NCBI GenBank assembly: GCA_026874595.1
Contig: CM049314.1
Span: forward strand, 50,637,812-50,701,811
Reading direction: 5' to 3'
From: Sipunculus nudus
Lineage: Eukaryota; Annelida; Sipuncula; Golfingiida; Sipunculidae
DNA length: 64,000 nucleotides
Positions 7,564 to 46,171 of the stretch are shown piece after piece. The translations under genes were made by a program, and so were the position numbers. Positions within the stretch are counted from its first letter, which is position 1. Every line of letters starts with the position of its first letter. Under the pieces are notes generated by a model. The model saw only the letters and a list, made by a program, of their open reading frames with translations, was not told the DNA's origin and did no database searches.

Positions 7564-9454
7564 AGCTCAGCTGACTATAAGTCATCTGAGCTATAGTCGT
7601 GGTCCATTGTCCGTCGTCCGTCCGTCTGTCCGTCCGTCCGTCCGTCCGTCCGTCCGTCCGTAGATGTGGCACGTTTTGAAACCGTAAGACCTAGGAATCC
7701 AAAATTCAGCATAATGTTAGATGTCCCCAAGATCTCCTACCAAGCCGAAAACTGGGTCTTTGCGACTTCGTTCCTTTGAGAAATTAAGGAAAAACCTCAA
7801 TTTTTTATTAAAATCCTATTTTCACACTTCAGGACTGCCTAATATCAAAACCACTCATCTGTTTTTCCTCATATTTACCATAAATATTCTTCCATATAGT
7901 TCCTATGTACATGCCAGAAATTAAGTCTGTTAAGTATAAATTCTTTAAGTTATGGGTCCAAACATAATGGACTTTGTAAAAAATCAGGAAAAATATTTAC
8001 TCACATAACATGAAAAATTTTGAAACTAGAGTCTGTTTTCCCAAGTATATAACTATGTTTAATTAAGATTCAATTGCTTACCCAAAATTAGATCTGAATT
8101 TTGTAAATTTTTTAAGTAATTAGCATAAAAATAAAATCAGTACCTTAAATTTTGCCCAACTTTGACCGTGGCACGTTTTTTTCCTGTAAGTACCATTGAT
8201 TTAATTTTCACAGCATGTAAACATAAATATTTAATTTGTTTAAATCTGAAATTTGGAAATAAAAGCTTGAAAATTAAGCTAGTTATTGATTTTTTTCTTG
8301 AGGCTCTATTGTAGTCATTTGCTTTGATTAGAGGTTACAGATGCAGGGTCCCACTCCAGGTCACTGGAAGTCAGCTATGCCAGGGTTTCTGATTTGTTAC
8401 AGTCACTGGGGGAGATCCCCTGCTGTGACAGGTGTACAGTTATTCTCATATCACCACCCCAATCACCACCCCCCCCCCCCCCCCCCCCCCCCCCCCCGCA
8501 AACCCAACCAACCAAGTGTTATGCAGTATTGTTATTGTTTTCACTGTATCTCCTTAATTGTAATGCTGTTTCCACTCTGATATGCAAAATCTTTCCTTGA
8601 AAAAGTAATTCAAGGTGTAATCCAGAAGATGATATGTTGTGTAATGTAGCATTTTTAAAGAAATCATTTTTCTTTTAAATCATTTTACCAATCATAATGG
8701 AACCCATCAGTATGCTTAAATTATGATAAAATATGAAGCACATTATGGATAAATAAAGACACAAAAATTGTGAAATCTAAATCAAGTATTTTTTTAGATA
8801 TTTATTGTTTTGCAGATTTAAAAGATATATTTTTGTGGTAAAAAATAAATAAACATTTGAATGCATGATGTGGTGTTATCTGACAAGATTGAGATTTATG
8901 ATGATACAATTGAGAATTATGAATCAACTTTTATATTCAGATATATATGTTATATTGAAAATGTATAGAAATATAAACTTAAATTTAAAAAAAAAATTGA
9001 TGTGTTAAAAAAATGAGGATTTATTACAAACATTTGTTCATTATTTTCCTGCATCAGCAGAATTTGAGATCAGGCTTTGTTTGCCATGTTTTATGTTGTT
9101 AATTAGTTATATTTCAACTGTATACATTTCATAAAAAACATATATTTAATAATATATATTATACAAAAAAAAGGTTCGATTGAACAAATGTGTAAACTAC
9201 TGAAATGTCAACAGTTAATCAAAAAACCAACTAATGATCATGGTAATTGTACAGATCATTTGTTCACAAACTGCTCACATGCTTCAGTTTCAACATTAGG
9301 AAACACATGGTCAGGTCACAAAATATTATTTGCAACAATTTCTTGCTCATCAATACAAACCAATCATATAAACCAACCATGGCCTTTATTACCTCTTCCT
9401 CTTACACTTTATATCCATTTGATATTATTTTAGATTTTTACCTTCAAGGTTAAC
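7564..9454 (+). mobile_element. Family A element, short subtype, 3' end replaced by family B
   Basis: The 5' end AGCTCAGCTGACTATAAG and the GTCC tract (7614-7662) match the other family A copies. The body matches 36887-38770 almost end to end, including a poly-C tract at 8469-8497. The match stops at CCTTCAAGGTTAAC, about 15 bp before the expected CAGCTGAGC 3' motif, where a family B element starts. Confidence 0.75.
8469..8497 (+). repeat. Poly-C tract (29 C)
   Basis: This is a homopolymer run inside a family A element. The corresponding site in the 36887 copy has only 9 C (about 37765). Overlapping proline-rich ORFs here are artefacts of the run. Length may be unreliable in assembly. Confidence 0.9.
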
Positions 9455-18244: not shown

Positions 18245-18894
18245 TTTTTCCCTGTGAGTACTGTTGATTTAATTTTCACAGCATGTAAACATAAGTATTT
18301 AATTTGTTTAAATCTGAAATTTGAAAATAAAAGGTTGAAAAATTAGGCTAGTTATTGAATTTTATCTTGAGGCTCTGTTGTAGTCACTTGCTTTGTTCTA
18401 GATGCAGGTAGGCCACTCCAGGTCACTGGAAGTCAGCTATGCAAGGGTTCCTGATTTGTTGCAGTCACTGGGGGAGATCCCCTGCTGTGACAGGTGTACA
18501 ATTGTTCTCATATCACACCCCTCCCCCCATGAATATTTAAATATACATTTGTATGCATGATGTGGTGTTATATGACAAGATTGAGATTTATGATGATGTA
18601 ATTTAAAATTATGAATCAACATTTATATTCAGAAATATTTGTTATATTGGAAATGTATACAAATTAAACTTAAAATAAAAAAATGAATATCTAATACAAA
18701 CATGTGTTTATTATTTTCAAGCCTCAGCAGAATTGGAGATCAGGCTTTGTTTGCCCTGAATGTATATGCAAAGTGTTGTTAATCCCACCATCCCCCCCCC
18801 CCCCCCCCCCCCCCCGGCCGTCATTGATCCTTTGCACCTCACCGTCACCTTTGCACTGGGACATTAGTTGTTATTGCAAATGTGTACAATTTTT
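18245..18894 (+). mobile_element. Family A element, outer copy, 3' part
   Basis: This continues the element begun at 12463 (CCCTGTGAGTACTGTTGATT...). It matches 8180-9080 of the short subtype, with internal deletions. It contains a 24-C tract at 18792-18815. The element is cut by a family C start at 18895, so no 3' terminus is present. Confidence 0.7.
18792..18815 (+). repeat. Poly-C tract (24 C)
   Basis: This is a homopolymer run in the family A-derived sequence, one of several poly-C tracts in family A copies. Confidence 0.9.
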
Positions 18895-30175: not shown

Positions 30176-30695
30176 TTCACACATATGATAAAGAATCAAC
30201 ATTGCTTACAAAGTTTGAGAAACCAGCTCCTTGAAGAGAATAAAATGCCCTCTTGCATGCATTTATGCGGTCATCAATATGCTCCTTAGGAACAGAATTT
30301 GACAATGTAACACCGAGATATCTCACTTTTGCATTCAGTCAGCTTAACACTATCAAGTCGCCATTCAGGGTGAGGTTCTAGTGTACACTGCCCAAAAACA
30401 ACAAACTCGGTTTTCTGTGGATTAAACCTAAGACCATGTTGTGTTATATACCCATAGCTAAATCAGTCATCTTTTGTAAACCAGAGGCAGTCAGGCTTGC
30501 TAACATGAGATCGTCAGGATAACAGAATACATTGTAAGATACATTATTAATCTTTATGCCACCTGGTAAATTTGATGATGCGTTGACCAAATCTTGATAG
30601 AATAAATTAAAGAAAAAAAAGGGGAGGTTAGTCCTCCCTGACATGTGCCCTTGGTAAATTTTATTGCCTCACTTAGCTGTGAACCCCATTTAATT
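30176..30695 (-). pseudogene. LINE reverse transcriptase remnant, C-terminal part
   Basis: Read on the minus strand from 30695, it contains KFTKGTCQGGLTSP (the xQGG..SP motif), FNLFYQDLV, then NVFCYPDDLMLASLTASGL. The last corresponds to the catalytic FxYADD box, here with Pro instead of Ala. HGLRFNPQKTEFVVFG follows. A frameshift near 30335 moves the reading to VRYLGVTLS and the downstream KRAFYSLQGAGF. These are canonical motifs of non-LTR reverse transcriptases. It is broken by the frameshift, by the 1.29-kb insertion at 30696, and by loss of both ends, so it cannot make an active enzyme. Confidence 0.8.
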
Positions 30696-31984: not shown

Positions 31985-32341
31985 TTTGAACTGTTATTGA
32001 TTTATACCAGTTCACAATCAGTACCCAGCAGTTATCAGGTATAAAATTTATAGCTTAATTTAAACAAAATACCATGTGGTATAGCATCAAATGCACCCTC
32101 TGCATCTATAATGAACATCTATGGACAGAAGAACCACGCTTGGATCAATACGTTATGACATCATTAGCTAGGGAAGAGGCCATATTGGTACCTCTCCCTG
32201 CAACGAATCCGAATTGCAAATCACTTAATTCATGGAAATCAGATACATCCAGTATATATAATTCCATAATTTTAGATATTGTCCATGAGATTGTAATAGG
32301 TCGATAATTTCTTGGTAGAGTAGGATCTAGTGTTGGTTTTT
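31985..32341 (-). pseudogene. LINE reverse transcriptase remnant, N-terminal part
   Basis: On the minus strand 32341-32145 encodes the start of the reverse transcriptase domain: LPRNYRPITIS, SKIMELYIL, then DLQFGFVAGRGT. After a stop/frameshift the reading resumes as FIIDAEGAFDAIPHGILF, which holds the motif A aspartates. It shifts again and continues NCWVLIVNWYKSITVQ up to the insertion at 31984. Together with 30176-30695 it is one broken LINE copy in minus orientation. Its upstream part is cut off by the family A element at 32342. Confidence 0.8.
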
Positions 32342-35102
32342 TGCTCAGCTGACTATAAGTCATCTGAGCTATAGTCATGGTCCTTTGTCCGTCGGCTGTC
32401 TGTCTGTCTGTCTGTTAAAATGGCACATTTTGAAACCATTGGACCTACAAATCTAAAATTCGGCATACCTTTAGATGTCCCCCAAATCTCCAACCATACC
32501 CAAAATTGGGTCACTAGGACTTTGTTCCTTCGAATTATTAAGGAAAAACCTCCGTTTTCCATTTAAAACCCATTGTTACACTTCAAGACTGCCTAATATC
32601 AAAACCACTGACCTGATATTGACCATTTTTAATTTATTAATTCCTCTATATATCCTATGTACATACCAGAAATTACTTCAATATTTTTTAAATTCTCGAA
32701 ATAATGGGCCCAAACATAATGCACTTTAAAAAAATTCAGGAAATATGTTTACACTCTTTAACTTGAGAATTGCTGAAGCTAGAGACTTTCTTTCAGGTAT
32801 ATAACTATATTTAATCAAGATTCAATTGTATACCAAAAATTAGATCTGAATTTTTTAAATTTTATAAGTTATTAGCATAAATATAAAATCAGTAACTTAA
32901 ATTTTGCCCAGATCTGACCATGGCACATTTTTTTCCTGTAAATGCTGTGGATTTAATTTTCACAGCATGCTTCCATAAGCATTTCATCTCTAAACATCTG
33001 AAATTTGAAACCAGTTGATCAAAAACTGTAGATTTCATTTAAGTTTTCAAGCACCATGTAAAGTATTGATTAGATCAAGCAAATGTTATGCAGTTTGCTC
33101 AGCTCCCCAGCTTCCCAGACCAGCTCTCAGCTCCCAAAATTTGGCATACAGTTAGATGTCCCCCAAACCCCCCTACCATTCCATAAGTTTGGTCAATAGA
33201 ACTTCATTCCTTCGAGATATAAAGAAAAAACTTTAATTTTCAATAAAAAAAACCCATTGTTACACTTCAAAACTGCCTAATATCAAAACCACTGTTATCT
33301 GACTTTGATCATATAAAATATATATGTTCTTCTAAACCACTGTGATCTGACTTTGATCATATAAAATATATATGTTCTTCTATTTATACTCTATGCACAT
33401 GTCAGAAATGATGTGAGTATTGCGAAATTGTTTTAAGTTATGGGCCCAAACATAATTCACTTTGTAAACAAGAAATATGTTTACTCCCTTAACATGAAAA
33501 TGGCCGAAGCTAGAGATTTTTTTTTGTCAGGGATATAACATTATATAATCAAGATTCAATTGTATACCCAAAATTAGTTATGAATTTTTCAAATTTTATA
33601 AGTTATTAGTATAAATATAAATCAGTACCTTAAATTTTGCCTAATTGTGATCATTGCATGTTTGTTTTGTGTGAGCACTGTTGATATAATTTTCATATCA
33701 TGCAGAAATAAGGATTTCAGCTTCTTAGTTTTGAAAGTTGAAAGAAATTGGCCAAAAACTGTAGCTTTTATTAAAGTTTTTATGACACCATGTCAGATCC
33801 AGGCTCTACCCAGGCCCTATTCAGTCACCTGTATGTCCTCTACTTGACCTTTCCTGCCAATTCTGCATGCATGATGGGGGGCATATACTTGCAGCTGGGC
33901 ATTTTATTGCTCCCCACAGCTGATCCAGGTGTCCAACGCAGCTCATCTATTAGTTGTTTAGAACAACAGCATAACAATAAACAATGAATAAATAAATTTT
34001 TATAGATCTATAATAACAACTGTAAAAATAATCAGTAGAAAAGGAATATGACAGTTGATGAGTAACAGGGAATTACCTTGCAGTTACTGATGTTTTATGG
34101 ATTTTGTATGGATGGATGAAAATGTATTCCAAGTAACACAATTGAGTCACGTATGGTATTTTTCTTTTCAGTTTTACTAATAAAAAAAAATAATTAAATT
34201 ATATTGTTATGTACTATTAGGGATTATATGAAGGAAATTAATGATTTACAAAGATGCACTTTATTATATAGATCTAAATTCCCAGGTCTTTTCCAAGTGT
34301 TTCAGCTTGTTAATTTATATTTATTTCAAAATTTTAAAAAAAGTTAAAATGTCAAAATTTTTAAATTTTACTCAGTCAAGTACTGATTAAAGATGTCAAT
34401 ATGTTTCACTTATGACATTCAGACACGTAACTGTAACAGCTGTCACAAGACTATGTAAATAATCAAAATTTATATTACTGGTTCCTATATTTCAGTTAAT
34501 AAAATTAAACTTGCCCATCTCTAGTTTTCTCCTTGTTTAATTTATAGGGTGTTCTTAAACTTGGGTTATTTTTTACACATATAATGGTTTCATAGCTGAG
34601 ATACTTCAAATTTTTTTCTGATAATTTTTTTTTAATTAAAATTTGAACATGATAAAAAAGCAGATCTTATGATTTCTGTAATGTTAATAATTGTCATAAG
34701 ACTCATGCTATGTCCATTGTGTAGTTTGATATGAAGGTAGTCCAAAGAGAATATTATAGTTTTATTTTTTGAATATAAATAAAATTCATAAAACCAGGTA
34801 CTTATGATCATTATTTAAAATATGTGATATTTGTTTATTCTGGATTCTCAAGAACTTTGTTTGGCTAAAACTGAATAAATACCAGACATGGTGCAGTACT
34901 TTGCAAATATATTTGAATGCAAATATGAATATGTACCCCATAATTTCATGTATAAGGATAGGAATACAGGTAAAACTGTAAGTATTTGAATACAAATGCA
35001 TTCATAAATATATTCTGTAATATTATTTCAATAATCATTTATTTCGACAATATCATTAACAAATCTTTGATGAAAAAAACAGGTGATACTGTTATCTTTT
35101 TA
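32342..35102 (+). mobile_element. Family A element, diverged, 3' end missing
   Basis: It starts TTTTT-TGCTCAGCTGACTATAAG, with a short GTCTGTCTGTCTG tract (32399-32416). Modules at about 32470 and 33150 follow, then sequence matching 6640-7250 of the long subtype. A 55-bp stretch around TGATCTGACTTTGATCATAT is duplicated at 33295-33380. It runs into the family B start at 35103 without a CAGCTGAGC terminus. Confidence 0.65.
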
Positions 35103-36886: not shown

Positions 36887-38770
36887 AGCTCAGCTGACTT
36901 TAAGTCATCTGAGCTATAGTCGTGGTCCATTGTCCGTCATCCGTCCGTCTGTCCGTCCGTCCGTCCGTAGATGTGGCACGTTTTGAAACCGTAAGACCTA
37001 GGAATCCAAAATTCATCATAATGTTAGATGTCCCCAAGATCTCCTACCAAGCCAAAAACTGGGTCTTTGCGACTTTGTTCCTTTGAGAAATTAAGGAAAA
37101 ACCTCAATTTTTTATTAAAATCCTATTTTCACACTTCAGGACTGCCTAATATCAAAACCACTCATCTGTTTTTCTTCATATTTACCATAATTATTCCTCT
37201 ATATAGTTCCTATGTACATGCCAGAAATTAAGTCTGTAAAGTATAAATTCTTTAAGTAATGGGCCCAAACATAATGGACTTTGTAAAAAATCAGGAAAAA
37301 TATATACTCACTTAACACTCTAATTTTGAAACTAGAGTCTATTTTCCCAAGTATATTACTATGTTTAATTAAGATTCAATTGTTTACCGAAAATTAGATC
37401 TGAATTTTGTAAATTTTTTAAGTTATTAGCATAAAAATAAAATCAGTACCTTAAATTTTGCCCAACTTTGACCATGGCACTTTTTTTTCTGTTAGTACCA
37501 TTGATTTAATTTTCACAGCGAGTAAATATTTAATTTGTTTAAATCTGAAAGTTGAAAATAAAAGCTTGAAAATTAGGCTAGTTATTGATTTTTTCTTGAG
37601 GCTCTGTTGTAGTCATTTGCTTTGATTACAGATTACAGATGCAGGGTCCCACTCCAGGTCAATGGAAGTCAGCTATGCCAGGGTTTCTGATTTGTTACAG
37701 TCACTGGGGGAGATCCCCTGCTGTGACAGGTGTACAGTTATTCTCATATCACCATCCCAATCACCCCCCCCCCAGCAAACCCAACCCACCAAGTGTTATG
37801 CAGTAATTTTTATTGCTTTCACTGCATCTCCTTCATTGTAATGCTGTTTCCACTCCGATATGCAAAATCTTTCCTTGAAAAGGTAATTCAAGGTGTAATC
37901 CAGAAGATGCAATGTTGTGTAATGTGGCATTTTTAAAGAAATCAATTTTCTTTTAAATGATTTTAACAAATATAATTGAACCCTTCAGTATGCTTAAATT
38001 TATAAAATATGAAGCACATTATGGATAAATAAAGACACATTTAAAAATTGTGAAATCTAAATCAAGTATTATTTTAAGATATTTATTGTTTTGCAGATTT
38101 AAAAGATATATTTTTGTGGTAAAAAATAAATAAACATTTGTATGCATGATGAGGTGTTATCTGACAAGATTGAGATTTATGATGATGCAATTAAGAATTA
38201 TGAATCAACTTTTATATTCGGATATATAGGTTATATTGGAAATGTATAGAAATATAAACTTATAATAAAAAAAATTGATGAAATAAAAAAATGAGGATTT
38301 AATACAAACATTTGTTCATTATTTTCCTGCCTCAGCAGAATTTGAGATCAGGCTTTGTTTGCCCTGTTTTATGTTGTTCATTAGTTATATTTCAACTGTA
38401 TAAATTTCATTAAAAAATACATTTATATTTAATAATATATATTATACAAAAAATAGATTCAATTGAACAAATGTGTAAACTACTGAAATGTCAACAGTTA
38501 ATCAAAAAGCCAACTAATGATCATGGTAATATTACAGATCATTTGTTCACAAACTGCTCACATGCTTCAATTTCAATATTAGGAAACACATGGTTAGGTC
38601 ACAAAATATTATTTGCAACAATTTCTTGCTCATCAAGACAAACCAATCATATAAACCAATCATGGCCTTTATTACCTCTTCCTCTTACACAGCATCTCCA
38701 TTTGATATTATTTTAGATTTTTACCTTCAAGGTCAACTTCAGCTGAGCATAGTGACCCATAGGTCCCTTG
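36887..38770 (+). mobile_element. Family A element, complete short subtype (1.9 kb)
   Basis: The 5' end is AGCTCAGCTGACTTTAAG after TTTTTT, with a GTCC tract at 36942-36968. One module (about 37025) is followed by a distinct 3' half. The 3' end is CAGCTGAGCATAGTGACCC, then ATAGGTCCCTTG, before TTTTT. The inverse 5' AGCTCAGCTG and subterminal 3' CAGCTGAGC are intact. The final palindrome has one mismatch (GACCCATAGGTC). This shortest complete copy defines the minimal unit that moves. It has no coding capacity. Confidence 0.85.
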
Positions 38771-39365
38771 TTTTTAAAATGTCCTAGTCTGAAAGGTTCA
38801 TTTGGCTGAAATCATAATCTCCTGACTTAGTGGAATTGAAATTGAGGTGATTTGCTGTGTTTTTCTATCTATCTGCCTGTTTTTAAATAGTTAATAATTA
38901 TGAATAAACTTTTTTTTCAATCAAGCACTGTTAAATTAAATTTCATATCCTGTATGTATAAGCAAAGGTGTTGTATAACTCCCACCATTCCCTCTGATCA
39001 TCATGACCCATGGGTCCCTGGGTCATTTGTTTATTTATTCTGTAAGGGAGCACATTTTTGTAAAACAGGTAAACCAGACTGGAAGTTTAATGGTATACAG
39101 AAGCCTCCATAATGGATTTTAGTCCCAGATGAGTAATGTTTGATTATGATATGGTCAACCATATTTAGCAACCTTTTGCAATGTTCAGTAACTTCTGTTT
39201 TGTTTTCAGATATAGCTGAGAATATCAGGGATAAGCCAAATACTGAGAATATTTGGGTGATGCAAGAGCATGTTGGTCATTCTCACAGAGGTCAGAAAAC
39301 CAAGATGATAACTTTGGACAGATATGATTGTTTGTCATGGTTAAAATATAATCTAATTCAGGAGA
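38771..39365 (+). other. Upstream flank of the DUF229 gene
   Basis: This is mostly non-repeat sequence. A palindromic GACCCATGGGTCCCTGGGTC at 39004-39023 may be a relic of a family A 3' end. TTTGTTTTCAG (about 39199-39209) could serve as a splice acceptor. A 39140-39394 ORF runs through it and ends at the stop of the first minisatellite unit. No TATA or initiator element can be assigned. Confidence 0.4.
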
Positions 39366-40182
39366 CGATGGAGAGGATTCAACACTGTGCCTAGCCATTC
39401 AGATCAGACAATGGAGAGGATTCAGCACTGTGCCTAGCCATTCAGATCAGACAATGGAGAGGATTCAGCACTGTGCCTAGCCATTCAGATCAGACAATGG
39501 AGAGGATTCAGCACTGTGCCTAGCCATTCAGATCAGACAATAGAGAGGATTCAACACTGTGCCTAGCCATTCAGATCAGACAATGGAGAGGATTCAACAC
39601 TGTGCCTAGCCATTCAGATCAGACAATGGAGAGGATTCAACACTGTGCCTAGCCATTCAGATCAGACAATGGAGAGGATTCAGCACTGTGCCTAGCCATT
39701 CAGATCAGACAATAGAGAGGATTCAACACTGTGCCTAGCCATTCAGATCAGACAATGGAGAGGATTCAACACTGTGCCTAGCCATTCAGATCAGACAATG
39801 GAGAGGATTCAACACTGTGCCTAGCCATTCAGATCAGACAATAGAGAGGATTCAGCACTGTGCCTAGCCATTCAGATCAGACAATGGAGAGGATTCAGCA
39901 CTGTGCCTAGCCATTCAGATCAGACAATAGAGAGGATTCAGCACTGTGCCTAGCCATTCAGATCAGACAATGGAGAGGATTCAGCACTGTGCCTAGCCAT
40001 TCAGATCAGACAATAGAGAGGATTCAGCACTGTGCCTAGCCATTCAGATCAGACAATGGAGAGGATTCAACACTGTGCCTAGCCATTCAGATCAGACAAT
40101 GGAGAGGATTCAGCACTGTGCCTAGCCATTCAGATCAGACAATGGAGAGGATTCAGCACTGTGCCTAGCCATTCAGGTCAGA
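39366..40182 (+). repeat. 43-bp minisatellite, 19 units
   Basis: The array is exactly 19 x 43 bp with no indels, and ends two bases before the gene's ATG. Apart from a CGATGG start in unit 1 and GTCAG for ATCAG in unit 19, only two positions vary. They are CAATGG/CAATAG (A in units 5, 9, 12, 14, 16) and TTCAGCAC/TTCAACAC (A in units 1, 5, 6, 7, 9, 10, 11, 17). The pattern shows a four-unit higher order (5-8 against 9-12) and a two-unit order (12-17). That implies recent unequal exchange or slippage. Each unit with CAATGG contains a complete ORF, MERIQHCA-stop, in ACAATGG context. Confidence 0.97.
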
Positions 40183-40184
40183 TC

Positions 40185-42149
40185 ATGAGGGTTTGTGTCC
40201 GCTGTATCCGACATTGCCTGGCTCTCAGCATTTCCTCTTTATTCATCTCATCTGGATATTTTATCATATTTTACCTGAAAGCAGTCATATTCTCTGATTT
40301 TGGGAATCCTGCCGAGAGACACTTGTTGCATTTGGATGTTGACACCGTTCTGCCAGATAGGCATATTCTTCAGGAAAATGGAGTTGATCACCTGTTTGAA
40401 TGTGTTCAGCCCACCTTTGCTTTAGACAGTAAACCATATGACAATCATCCTGTAGAACCAATATCATGTCCAGTGGAAGAGAACTGGGTGTATGTTGAAA
40501 ATGGAACATTCAGAATATCAAAAAAATCTGTTGACAGGCATGGACAAATACAGTGTGCATTTGGACCAATCCTTAGAGATGAAGATGACATCAATGTTAC
40601 AACAGGAAAAGCACTTTTTCCTTGGCTTGATGGTCAACAAATAAAAACTGACATATTTCGTATAAAGTGTCTTGCTGCTGATGGCACAAAGCACGCAAAT
40701 ATTCACTCTGCCATATCTTTAAAAACAGATGTTGTGAACAGGAGTGCGAAAAACCATTCATCTGGATATGCACTTGGACTTAATGTACTAATGTTTGGGT
40801 TAGACTCCATGTCACGTCTAGGTTGGATGCAACAGCTTCCAAAAACATATCAATATTTTAGCCAAGATTTGAAGGGCATTGTTTTAAAAGGTTACAACAT
40901 TGTAGGTGATGGGACACCGCAGGCTCTGCTTCCTATCCTGACTGGACATACTGAGGCAGAACTGCCAGAAGCCAGGAGGGGCCATCCTGGTGCAAAGCAG
41001 GTGGATGCACATCCTTGGATATGGAGGGATTATTCCAAAGCCGGTTATGTGACTCAATGGGGGGAAGATGGAGCAGCATATGGCACTTTCCAGTACAGAA
41101 TGTACGGGTTTAAACATCAACCAGTGGATTATTATCTTCGTCCATTTTATCTGTCTGTTGAAAAATTATACAAATACTTCCAACCGTATTGTGTAGGATC
41201 AGTTCCGCGTCATGTGAATATGCTTAGATGGATCATGGACTTGTACCACATGTACCCAAACAGGAGGAAATTTAGCTTTCTGTTTCATTCAGAGTTAACA
41301 CATGATAGTACTGGTATGTTACCTGCTGCTGATATGGATATCCAACAATTTCTTCAAAATATGGAAGAGCAGCAATACCTGAACAACACTGTACTGATTC
41401 TGATGTCTGATCATGGGCCAAGGTATAACGGGGCCAGGAAGACCATCAGAGGTAAATATGAAGAAAGAATGCCATTCTTCTCATTCAGGTTTCCACCTTG
41501 GTTTGAGGAAAAATATCCCCTTGCCATTAAAAATTTCAGACGAAATGTACAAAGACTTACTACACCTTTTGACATTCATGAGACATTGAAAGAGATCATA
41601 AATTATACTGGCGTAGGAAAAGGGCATGTGACAAAACGGGGTATCAGTCTCTTTAAAGAGATTCCAGCAGGACGGTCCTGCAGTCACGCAGGAATTGCAC
41701 CACATTGGTGTTCATGTCTCAAGTGGGAATCAGTTGGGATAAGTGATGTTTATGTAAATTCTGCTGCAGCAGCATTGGTCCGTGCCATAAACCACTTTAC
41801 AAGCAAATATAGAAAACTCTGCCACATCCTATATCTTGATACTGTATTAGGTGCTGTCAGATATGCACCTGATGATAAAATGTTACGTTTTAAAAGAAGT
41901 AAAGACTCAGATGGACGTGAGGCTGATATGACTGACAACATGGCCCCATCTGAAGTTTTATATCAGGTAACTATAGTTACGAAACCTAGTAGAGCCAAGT
42001 ATGAAGCAACCATAAAGTATCTTGTGGACTTTGATGAGTATAAGGTTAATGACAGAGAAATCAGCAGGATAAATAAATATGGCAGTCAACCTCATTGTAT
42101 AATGAGTGTACTTCCCCATCTCAGAAAATACTGTTTTTGTATTAATTGA
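40185..42149 (+). CDS. DUF229 family type II membrane protein (alkaline-phosphatase-like fold)
   Basis: This is a 654-residue intron-free ORF. It has a short basic N-terminus and one hydrophobic segment (about residues 12-36), so it is probably a type II, Golgi/secretory-pathway protein with its catalytic domain in the lumen. Family motifs are in order: LMFGLDSMSRLGW (Asp207, a likely metal ligand); GYNIVGDGTPQALLPILTG (Thr244 at the nucleophile position of sulfatase-like enzymes); QWGEDGAAYGTFQYRMYGF; DYYLRP; FHSELTHD (His368, His373, Asp374); LMSDHGPR (Asp409, His410); and a Cys-rich SCSHAGIAPHWCSC near 500. Sequons lie near residues 106, 137, 190, 400 and 473. Length fits the family. Upstream in-frame sequence lacks another ATG after a TAG at 40080, although GTG at 40161 is open; ATG 40185 has A at -3. 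The substrate is unknown for the family; phosphoester or sulfate transfer or hydrolysis is inference. An upstream non-coding exon cannot be excluded. Confidence 0.93.
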   Translation: MRVCVRCIRHCLALSISSLFISSGYFIIFYLKAVIFSDFGNPAERHLLHLDVDTVLPDRHILQENGVDHLFECVQPTFALDSKPYDNHPVEPISCPVEENWVYVENGTFRISKKSVDRHGQIQCAFGPILRDEDDINVTTGKALFPWLDGQQIKTDIFRIKCLAADGTKHANIHSAISLKTDVVNRSAKNHSSGYALGLNVLMFGLDSMSRLGWMQQLPKTYQYFSQDLKGIVLKGYNIVGDGTPQALLPILTGHTEAELPEARRGHPGAKQVDAHPWIWRDYSKAGYVTQWGEDGAAYGTFQYRMYGFKHQPVDYYLRPFYLSVEKLYKYFQPYCVGSVPRHVNMLRWIMDLYHMYPNRRKFSFLFHSELTHDSTGMLPAADMDIQQFLQNMEEQQYLNNTVLILMSDHGPRYNGARKTIRGKYEERMPFFSFRFPPWFEEKYPLAIKNFRRNVQRLTTPFDIHETLKEIINYTGVGKGHVTKRGISLFKEIPAGRSCSHAGIAPHWCSCLKWESVGISDVYVNSAAAALVRAINHFTSKYRKLCHILYLDTVLGAVRYAPDDKMLRFKRSKDSDGREADMTDNMAPSEVLYQVTIVTKPSRAKYEATIKYLVDFDEYKVNDREISRINKYGSQPHCIMSVLPHLRKYCFCIN

Positions 42150-42207
42150 AGAATATGGTGATAAACTTCAAAGACTCCTTATAGATGTGCATGTTAACAA
42201 AGCTGAC

Positions 42208-42345
42208 TTTGAGCAATAGTGATAACCCATTGTCTATCCATCTGTCCATTAGACTGACACATTTTGATGCCATTGGATTTATGAATTTGTAATTTAACAT
42301 ATAATTAGATGAATATAAATAATTCTACCAAACCTGAAATTAGGT
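42208..42345 (+). mobile_element. Highly degenerate family A 5' fragment
   Basis: The sequence GAGCAATAGTGATAACCCAT, then TGTCTATCCATCTGTCC, GACACATTTTGATGCCATTG and AATTAGATG, aligns with the start of family A (for example 61771-61890) with many changes. It is an old copy lying in the likely 3' untranslated region of the DUF229 gene. Confidence 0.5.
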
Positions 42346-42369
42346 CTCTGTGACATCTTTATATTGAAA

Positions 42370-42375
42370 AATAAA
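42370..42375 (+). terminator. Possible polyadenylation signal
   Basis: AATAAA lies 221 bp after the DUF229 stop codon. In sequence this AT-rich the hexamer is common by chance. No GT-rich downstream element was clearly seen. Confidence 0.2.
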
Positions 42376-42467
42376 ATGAAAAACTTACCTTGTAAGGTAA
42401 TTACTGACACTTCAAAGCTACTTCTAGTCATATGTATTGTAGATATACCCCTCAGATTTCCATTTTT

Positions 42468-43235
42468 AGCTCCACGGACTATAATTCATCTGAGCTATAG
42501 TCATTGTCCGGACAGTCGTCCGTTTACAAGGCACATTTTGAAACCGTAAGCTATAGGAATCCAAAATTCGACATAAAGGTGACTGTGTTCTCCTACCACA
42601 CCCAAAATTAGGTCTCAGTGTCTTCGTTCCTCCGTTATTACCAAAAAAAACTAAATAAATTAGGTCAAGGTGACTTCGTTCCTCAGAGAAACTAGGGAAA
42701 AAAACTAAAAAAAAAAAACCTGTTGTTACACTTCAAGATCGCCCACTATGAAAACCACTGGTGTTGTTTAGTTCAAATTTGGCATACTAGTATATGGCTC
42801 TGCATATTTCGTATGCTTTTGCCAGAAATAAGGCAATATTGCGTAAGTTTCAGACCAGGACATAATGCACCTTGTCAAAACATCAGGAAATATATTTACC
42901 TAATTTACTTGTTAACAGTTGAAGCTGGAGAGGTTTTTTTTTAAGGATTTTACTTAATTTAGTTTCCATTTAATTGTATACCAAATCTTAGATCAGAATC
43001 TTGTAAAATTTTCAAGTTATTAGCGTAAATTTAAAAATTAGTACCTTAAATTTTTACCATGGCACATTTTTCCTATGAGCCCTGTTAATTACTTTAATTT
43101 TCACAGCTTTTACACACAAGTTAGTACGGGGTAAATCTTTCATAAAATGAAAATTGAAAGCAATTGGTCAAAAACTGTAGCTTGTATTCAAGTTTTCAAC
43201 CACCATGTCAAGTATTGTTTACATCAGGCCAGCCG
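42468..43235 (+). mobile_element. Diverged family A element, interrupted
   Basis: It begins TTTTT-AGCTCCACGGACTATAA, followed by CATCTGAGCTATAGTCATTG and a module-like body (CACTTCAAGATCGCC at 42729-42743, then TTTAATTTTCACAGC at 43095-43109). It is more diverged than other copies. It is interrupted at CATCAGGCCAGCC by the 4.2-kb inverted-repeat element. Confidence 0.65.
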
Positions 43236-43501
43236 GGATCATCTCAGATAGACGCTGTTCAGATAGACGCCATTGTATCACGTGGACGCTGTTCATTTGG
43301 ACGCTATGAAAATGGACGCTGTTCATATAGACGCCTTCGTATTATGAGCCCATATACGCCTTAATACAAGCCATATAGCCACATTTATATATTTTACGTA
43401 TTTCCTTTAAGTGTGTATATCGTTTGATTGAAGATGAACGTTAACAAAAATGTCTTAGAGACCATCGTATTATAGACGCCATCGTATATTGTTTCCTTAT
43501 A

Positions 43502-43686
43502 CAATGAAACCTCAGTGTGTCAAACTCGCTTAAGTCGAATACCCCGCTTATGTCGAAGTTACGGACTCGATATTCCGGACAACTCTAGTTAAATTATAAC
43601 CAAATTAAAACCCGCTTGTGTCGAACCTTGGATGTGTCGAAGTTTTCTGAGGGTCCCTTCGACTTCGACACAACGAGGTTTCACTG
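43502..43686. mobile_element. 185-bp pogo-like MITE
   Basis: The ends are CAATGAAACCTC and, inverted, CAGTGAAACCTC, flanked by TA at 43500-43501 and 43687-43688. The paralogous segment at 44552-44570 reads CCTTAGATTTGAAACC without the insert and with exact length agreement (TA there is GA). The subterminal regions also pair (TCGAAT.., GACTTCGACACAACGAGG), giving a strong hairpin. It is typical of Tigger/pogo-derived MITEs. Confidence 0.85.
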
Positions 43687-43982
43687 TATTTGAGACCTAA
43701 TTTAATAAAAACAATTTGATGTTTAGATCACATTTTATATGTAGTGCGAATGAAAAGGAACGCTGATCATACAGAAGTTATCGTATTATATATGCCATCG
43801 TCTGCATCGTCCCTTCAGAAGACGCCTAAGGACAAGTAATGAAAACAATTCTCATTTTTAAATGAAATGTTTTCATAAAAAGGAGACCCAATTTAATAAT
43901 AACCATGTTATGTTTTAGATTATATTGTATGTTTGTGCGTATTGCATGCGAATGAGGGTCTTTTCATATATCATGCAAATCA

Positions 43983-45180
43983 AAATGAACGCTGATCATA
44001 TCTAGACGTTATCGTATTATAGACGCCAGCGTCTCTATCCACCCATTCAGAAAGACGCCTAATGACAAGTAATGAATATAATTCTCATTATTTTAAAATG
44101 TTTCCATAAAAGGGGGACCCAATTTTATAATAACCATGTTATGTTTTAGATTATATTGTGTGTTTGTGCATATTTCGTGCGAATGAGGGTCTTTTGTTTC
44201 ATTTACCCGACAAATAATGGTCATGTGTAGTTTCAATTATATAACGGTTATGTAATGTTTATTATATTTTCCATTGTTAATTATTCTATCATTCCTCAAT
44301 ATACGATGTATAGTTAAAATTAAAGAACCTGAAGCAATGAAATCATGTGCATGATAGGATTAATTAGTCAACATCAAAGAAAACCTACCTCATTATCGGG
44401 GTATCCCGTTAATTGAATGGTCAATGGGGTGACCAAGCTGTAGCTGACATTGTACCGAGGACTCGTTTATTGTTAAACAACAATATATGATCACTGATCC
44501 ATGTCGGGTTTAGAATATTTGACTGCTTTTACAGAGCTACAATAAATTGTTTCCTTAGATTTGAAACCTAATTTAATAAAACAATTTCAATACCAAATTA
44601 ATGTTTCAGATCATATTTTATATATCATGCTAATGAAAATGAACGCTGATCATATAGATGGTAACGTATATTATAGACGCCAGCGTCTCTATACACCCTT
44701 TCAGAAAGACGCCTAATGACAAGTAATGAATATAATTCTCATTATTTTAAAATGTTTCCATAAAAGGGGGACCCAATTTTATAATAACCATGTTATGTTT
44801 TAGATAATATTGTGTGTTTGTGCATATTTCGTGCAAATGAGGGTCTTTTGTTTCATTTACCCGACAAATAAAAGTTTAAATAATGGTCATGTGTAATTAT
44901 ATAAAGGTTATGTAATGTTTATTATATTTTCCATTGTTAATTATTCTATCATTCCTCAATATACAATGTATAGTTAAAATTAAAGAACCTGAAGCAATGA
45001 AATCATGTACATGATAGGATTAATTAGTCAACATCAAAGAAAACCTACCTCATCATCGGGGTATCCCGTTAATTAAATGATCAATCAGATTACCAGGCTC
45101 TAGCTGACATAGTACCCAGGACTCGTTTATTGTTAAAACAACAATATATGATCACTGATCCATGTCCGGTTTAGAATATT
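43983..45180 (+). repeat. 653-bp direct tandem duplication
   Basis: The blocks starting AATGAACGCTGATCATAT at about 43983 and 44636 are highly similar for ~550 bp. Shared stretches include GACGCCAGCGTCTCTAT, AAAGACGCCTAATGACAAG and GGGGTATCCCGTTAATT. A third, weaker copy begins near 43752. The unit start resembles the element's terminal GGACGCTG motif. Confidence 0.85.
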
Positions 45181-45282
45181 TGGCTTTTTCATAAATTTAA
45201 CTTTTAATTTTAATTATTTGATTCCACATACATATATATAAATACATATATACATATATATACTTGACGAAACAGTATTATA

Positions 45283-46171
45283 TAGTGGTGGGCTGATCAT
45301 CGAGTTTTTTCGAAAGTCAGTCGGTTTGCTGCAACTTTCAAGCGCTCAATTACAAAAGGCAACTATCGATTACATCATACTCAAGAATGTCTTTAAGTTA
45401 TAGGCAAAATTACTCTTCCATTTTTTACAACATTCCGCGCTACATATAATGAGTTTGTGTTCCCAAATAACCTCCGTATATAACTGAGTATGACACACAC
45501 AGATGAGAGAACGGAGGACTTATTAAATCTATGTGAACTGGCAGGGAGCTGCAAAAATTAGCGGAGAGTTTTCTAACGAGATGTTCATTGCAAAATATGG
45601 GCGTTATGGAGTTAAATGCTCCAAAATGCTCCAGGTCTATGCCAATTTTGCAAGATTCTCTTAGAAATAATCTCCTCAACTGATGTCAGGTGCCGCTGCC
45701 GCATGAGTAATTTTATTTATAGCTTTCAATTAATTATTTTTTAATTTTTACCAAAAATTATATGGGCCTTAATTTTTCTGACAGGCCTGTGAAACCAGTA
45801 TACATGTCGGCAGTCATCATAATTGCTTTAAAATGAAAGTCCTAATAATGAAGTTAAAATGATACGCGGGAGTAGCCTATTCATGAGGGCAAGAAAGTAG
45901 ATGTCCTGGACTGTGGTTTAATTGATTACTATAATTAATTAAAATGAAACTTGTATAGCATATCTTAGTGATAAAAGGAAAATTTAACAAAGGCAAAAAC
46001 TTCTTTTCGTAAGGTAAACTTACTAAGACATGCGGGCTGGGTTGAGAGAGTACAGTTTCACAGATAATTGCACATTTCTTTATATTTGTCTGAACCGATT
46101 AATAATCGATCATCGATCGGTTTGCCCAAACCGATGATCGATTATGAAAAAGGAACCGACTCCCACCACTA
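45283..46171. mobile_element. 889-bp hAT-like non-autonomous transposon
   Basis: The ends TAGTGGTGGG and CCCACCACTA form a perfect 10-bp inverted repeat. It is flanked by a perfect 8-bp duplication GTATTATA (45275-45282 and 46172-46179). The 8-bp target duplication and the xAGxGGTGGG end fit the hAT superfamily. Subterminal AATCGATCATCGATCGGTTT and its inverse form a hairpin near the right end (46100-46145). The interior lacks a transposase ORF. Confidence 0.9.

Follow-up and report, generated by a model that had tools for sequence, protein, structure and literature searches.

A 43-bp minisatellite that repeats a short upstream open reading frame next to the start codon of a DUF229 gene in Sipunculus nudus

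Minisatellites are tandem arrays whose size ranges from 0.5 kb to several kb (PMC2820488), and those that are born by slippage (Haber and Louis 1998; Taylor and Breden 2000, as cited in PMC2820488 and PMC3389668) are characterized by an exact period, homogeneous units, a short sequence common to the two edges, and variants that are distributed block-wise. The array described here, located in a window of 64,000 nucleotides of the S. nudus genome (contig CM049314.1), has an exact period, homogeneous units, and block-wise variants, shows a candidate common sequence at its edges, and differs in that one of its edges holds the start codon of a gene, so that an ATG position recurs in every unit. The 28-bp repeat of the TYMS enhancer region is likewise a tandem repeat that lies close to the 5' side of a start codon and whose copies show single-site differences; in the sections of PMC7712088 considered, that repeat has few copies, is demonstrated to be polymorphic, and is proposed to act on transcription through USF1, whereas the array of S. 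nudus is known from one sequence.

As regards translation, the nearest described system is the GCN4 leader, in which four short upstream open reading frames (uORFs) are met in turn before one ORF, as several would be here; its uORFs are unequally spaced and proven to lie in mRNA, whereas the candidate uORFs of the array are identical and stand 16 nt apart where both neighbours have ATG (excerpts of PMC5972666). According to the same excerpts, ribosomes that have translated a short uORF must cover some distance, during which eIF2 is reloaded, before they can reinitiate. Vertebrate mRNAs show a depletion of uORFs near the coding sequence (CDS), and their uORFs stand in contexts that lower the translation of the uORF (PMC4890304, in part); this is the opposite of the array and argues against a regulatory role. 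No tandem array of identical uORFs was found in searches of open-licence papers.

The array and the gene that follows it

The elements of the locus are the following:

39363 to 40182, plus strand: minisatellite of 19 units of 43 bp plus AGA (Tandem Repeats Finder and unit-by-unit comparison)
39368 to 40168, plus strand: 14 copies of ATG GAG AGG ATT CAR CAC TGT GCC TAG, a potential uORF encoding MERIQHCA, in rotating frames, with ATA in the 5 other units (unit comparison)
40185 to 42149, plus strand: DUF229 gene, 654 aa in an uninterrupted frame, in which residues 11–29, close to the N-terminus, form a hydrophobic segment (Pfam PF02995, E = 2.5e-123; hydropathy)
42370 to 42375, plus strand: AATAAA, possible polyadenylation signal of the DUF229 gene (sequence)

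Tandem Repeats Finder delimited the array at 39363-40182 with a period of 43, 19.1 copies, 97% matches, 0% indels, and a score of 1535, the highest of the 36 rows obtained for the 64-kb window. The array itself is far beyond chance, and its 820 bp of homogeneous head-to-tail units (97% matches) lie within the minisatellite range. The comparison unit by unit resolved 19 units of exactly 43 bp at 39363-40179, followed by AGA to 40182, as an earlier note on this DNA had counted. The same note had recognized only two variable sites, ATG/ATA and CAG/CAA; this holds for the 17 internal units, and these are also the only sites at which a variant is common to several units, but each end unit adds a private variant. 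In unit 1, a G at position 5 creates a CpG in place of the CA found in the other 18 units, which suggests that this unit keeps the older state at the site, while in unit 19 a G at position 41 creates CAGGTC.

The ATG...TAG frame is complete in 14 of the 19 units, the other five (units 5, 9, 12, 14, and 16) having ATA, a variant that adds an extra TAG in another frame. All 14 ATGs are flanked by A at -3 and G at +4, and their frames reach a stop after 8 codons in the same unit, 16 nt before the ATG position of the next one, and the array ends 2 bp 5' of the main ATG (40185-40187). The earlier claims of 14 complete strong-context uORFs and five ATA units, of rotating frames each closing inside its own unit, and of an array ending 2 bp before the gene are thus all borne out.

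These 14 uORFs are one 8-codon uORF multiplied; in fact, any exact array with a period that is not a multiple of 3 repeats the ATG of its unit in rotating frames. A uORF with a purine at -3 and G at +4 that closes within the unit occurred in 5.0% of 20,000 shuffles of the unit, and a self-contained strong uORF was present in 4.2% of 21,001 overlapping real 43-mers of the window and in 2.5% of 4,772 GC-matched 43-mers. When the units are labelled A (ATG,CAG), B (ATG,CAA), C (ATA,CAG), and D (ATA,CAA), the ATA units sit in the blocks ADBB-ADBB and CACAC; a tandem block of at least 8 units, found in 839 of 20,000 permutations of the 17 internal labels, is only mildly unusual. One or two mutations spread by duplication would suffice for the ATA pattern, and the array is little informative on selection for or against the start codon because the ATA losses fall in duplicated blocks.

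The protein encoded downstream belongs to the DUF229 family, with a PF02995 match over residues 108-554 (412.9 bits versus a cut-off of 25) and a weaker Sulfatase match (26.3 bits versus a cut-off of 25). The next methionine of the frame is residue 203; therefore, 40185 is the only plausible start within its exon. Followed upstream, the main frame meets its first stop, a TAG, at 40080-40082, and an upstream exon may be spliced into the open stretch (40083-40184). In MolluscDB, a DUF229 family is listed as enriched in bivalves (68/79 proteins; PMC8059625, in part). A second DUF229 gene in the window was discarded, tblastn having found, besides the gene itself, no more than a 24-aa match (E 2.4), and a derivation of the unit from the DUF229 N-terminal coding sequence was likewise rejected, the local alignment being no better than that of shuffles (912/2000). 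The protein had no solved-structure relative at E 0.001 and no relatives in prokaryote and viral contig collections, which are little informative for an animal gene.

Other repeats surround the locus. The segment 38001-38737 (0.74 kb), upstream of the gene, is 93.5% identical to 8726-9454 and has a partial copy at 18538-18758 (84%). Downstream of the gene, at about 42460-43230, there is a dispersed repeat; BLAST placed 24 further matches of more than 340 bp in the window, at 63-71% identity, and some of these may belong to a single copy. On the minus strand, 30447-30668 and 32148-32414 appear by eye as LINE reverse transcriptase-like fragments, with no Pfam match at E 0.01.

Edges and possible origin of the array

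The ATG of the gene lies exactly one period past the last unit ATG (40142 + 43 = 40185), and the two borders of the array resemble each other:

39356 to 39370, plus strand: left edge, ATTCAGG then AGACGATG, resembling the right edge (edge comparison)
40171 to 40187, plus strand: right edge, ATTCAGGTCAGATCATG, containing the gene's own start codon, in the array register (edge comparison)

The flanks of the breakpoints agree: each breakpoint has ATTCAGG on its left, with an offset of 2 bp between the two, and AGA..ATG on its right; the match amounts to 7 identical bases on the left, an offset of up to 3 being allowed, and 6/8 on the right. In a register-fixed test on 200,000 random position pairs, designed after the edges had been inspected, the left match was found 327 times, the right match 1,644 times, and both 11 times. 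In free local alignment the similarity is weak, being equalled by 357/20,000 shuffled pairs and 1,966/20,000 real pairs, and 1,136 of 12,211 pairs 820 bp apart score as high as the edges. The internal junction, ATTCAG-ATC-AGACAATGG, corresponds to the right-edge pattern joined to the left-edge pattern, bar the two end-unit differences.

The register result gives moderate support to slippage between short direct repeats, one of which would overlap the start codon; the edge match could instead represent a decayed partial unit at each end, without a pre-existing direct repeat. If slippage is assumed, two short, imperfect direct repeats separated by 41-43 bp would have founded the array through slippage or unequal exchange, one of them lying upstream (ATTCAGG-AGACGATG) and the other (ATTCAGGTCAGATCATG) overlapping the DUF229 start codon. 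The 43-bp interval would by chance have contained one 8-codon uORF, and amplification would have copied everything, including the uORF; such an origin would explain why the frames rotate and why the array stops 2 bp short of the gene's ATG. The minisatellite is probably young and locus-specific, as judged from one 64-kb window, in which the unit was not found elsewhere (best match 39 bp at 74%, E 0.56). The uORFs would then most likely be a by-product of amplification, and productive DUF229 mRNAs, it may be guessed, avoid the array, most likely skipping the greater part of it by splicing into its end or by starting inside the last unit. The joint explanation, in which a passive slippage-born minisatellite carries uORFs as a by-product and productive mRNAs avoid most of it, appears fairly probable and is the one preferred here.

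Position relative to the transcript and rival explanations

Two candidate splice sites bear on whether the array would be kept in mRNA; they were ranked with general consensus matrices that are not trained on this organism:

39190 to 39209, plus strand: splice-acceptor-like AACTTCTGTTTTGTTTTCAG (general consensus matrix; rank 81/3328 AG sites)
40176 to 40177, plus strand: CAG/GTCAG junction in unit 19, candidate acceptor (rank 89/3328 AG) and donor (rank 37/3439 GT) (general consensus matrix)

Within 38800-40184, the highest-ranking acceptor-like site is that at 39209, which lies 153 nt before the array; splicing there would leave array and CDS in a single exon. The second best is that at 40176, whose predicted use as acceptor would remove the array and leave 8 nt before the ATG; it has a mixed tract (12/18 pyrimidines) and another AG 8 bp upstream (40168). 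Acceptor-like sites of similar rank are also present inside the CDS; therefore, neither 39209 nor 40176 is strong evidence. The region 39210-39362 contains 5 ATGs in 153 nt, versus 0.0207 per nt in the window, so that upstream ATGs are not depleted, as far as such small numbers can tell. The absence of depletion and the acceptor-like CAG/G at the end of the array are weak hints that lean against its retention in mRNA. From the acceptor-like site to the TAG of the first unit, a frame of 60 codons is open (39212-39391).

The CpG o/e has its minimum among 32 bins at 38001-40000 (0.03), although other bins go down to 0.07-0.12 and the array itself is nearly without CpG; when the array is excluded, 37801-39362 has a value of 0.06, and 2.9% of 312 windows are as low or lower. 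The CDS has a value of 0.32 and 42001-44000 one of 0.88. A sharp shift is observed along the window, from 0.03 at 38001-40000 to 0.86-0.88 at 42001-46000, just past the gene. If invertebrate methylation is mainly intragenic, in this animal as well, the array would lie within the transcription unit, and intron and leader would look alike in this respect.

The regulatory reading holds that the array is kept in the 5' leader, where scanning ribosomes would start at the 8-codon uORFs and stop 16 nt ahead of the following ATG position, so that few would arrive at the DUF229 start and translation would be repressed, the number of ATG units setting the residual level between alleles. This reading, which is unlikely, agrees with the strong-context ATG kept in 14/19 units, with the rank of the site at 39209, and, on the same assumption about intragenic methylation, with a CpG minimum fitting a methylated gene body; moreover, stronger repression goes with a short uORF-to-CDS distance and a good context (PMC4890304, in part). 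The undepleted ATGs of 39210-39362 argue against it, as does block duplication, which explains the ATG/ATA states, and the predicted leader is not unusually structured (z = +1.23 versus 20 shuffles). The array as an RNA structure was in fact discarded, two units giving z = -1.03 (200 shuffles), and neither an Rfam family at gathering score nor a tRNA was found. In a toy scanning model run with 18 sets of assumed parameters, three ATG units left 2-32% of the flow towards the main ATG, and an increase from 3 to 19 units brought a further 1.1- to 10-fold drop. The first three units cut the flow more than the next 16 in 15 of the 18 settings, which speaks against the regulatory reading; the other 3, which combine fast reloading with 50% drop-off, speak for it, the later units being at least as important there and units 4 to 19 contributing about 9- to 10-fold. 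Strong repression should thus follow if the array is kept in mRNA, a robust prediction of the model, while graded tuning by copy number hinges on its parameters. The stronger version, a start-codon dial in which a slippage-built retained leader with 14 identical strong uORFs sets DUF229 translation per allele through their number and ATG/ATA state, seems very improbable.

It is also conceivable, with rather little likelihood, that the array, placed in an intron or in DNA that is not transcribed, works there as a set of clustered transcription-factor sites. The ACAATGG of the unit may resemble a SOX site, and the ACAAT core survives the change of ATG to ATA; against this, unit 1 lacks the motif, and the CpG minimum is unlike an unmethylated promoter. 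A precedent for this reading is the TYMS TSER, a tandem repeat with USF1 sites just 5' of the start codon, with a proposed effect on transcription (PMC7712088, in part). Finally, there is a slight chance that the array belongs to a coding exon, or else to a dispersed satellite or a transposon. The frame open from 39212 to the first TAG (60 codons) and the main frame open back to 40083 are in keeping with a coding exon, but the 60-aa frame has no significant match in Pfam or PDB (best E 0.047, below cut-off, and 0.22, respectively). A dispersed element is disfavoured by the lack of the unit elsewhere in the window and of its patterns in viral and prokaryote contigs, which are the wrong collections for an animal satellite.

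The earlier note had left a regulatory and a passive role equally open; of the two, the passive one now seems better supported, one uORF having been multiplied, block duplication having spread the variants, and upstream ATGs not being depleted, while tuning by copy number proved parameter-dependent in the toy model. The preferred explanation is that of a passive minisatellite, probably born by slippage.

Significance of the array

The array is real and, judging from its sequence, probably passive, and nothing in this analysis is evidence that it controls the DUF229 gene. As a general warning, 'many uORFs' in a tandem array count as one observation. If the array were spliced out or untranscribed, it would illustrate how the birth of a minisatellite can copy the region of a start codon; if it were retained in mRNA, it would serve as a natural titration series of the number of uORFs that a ribosome can pass, and as a candidate VNTR with an effect at the level of translation.
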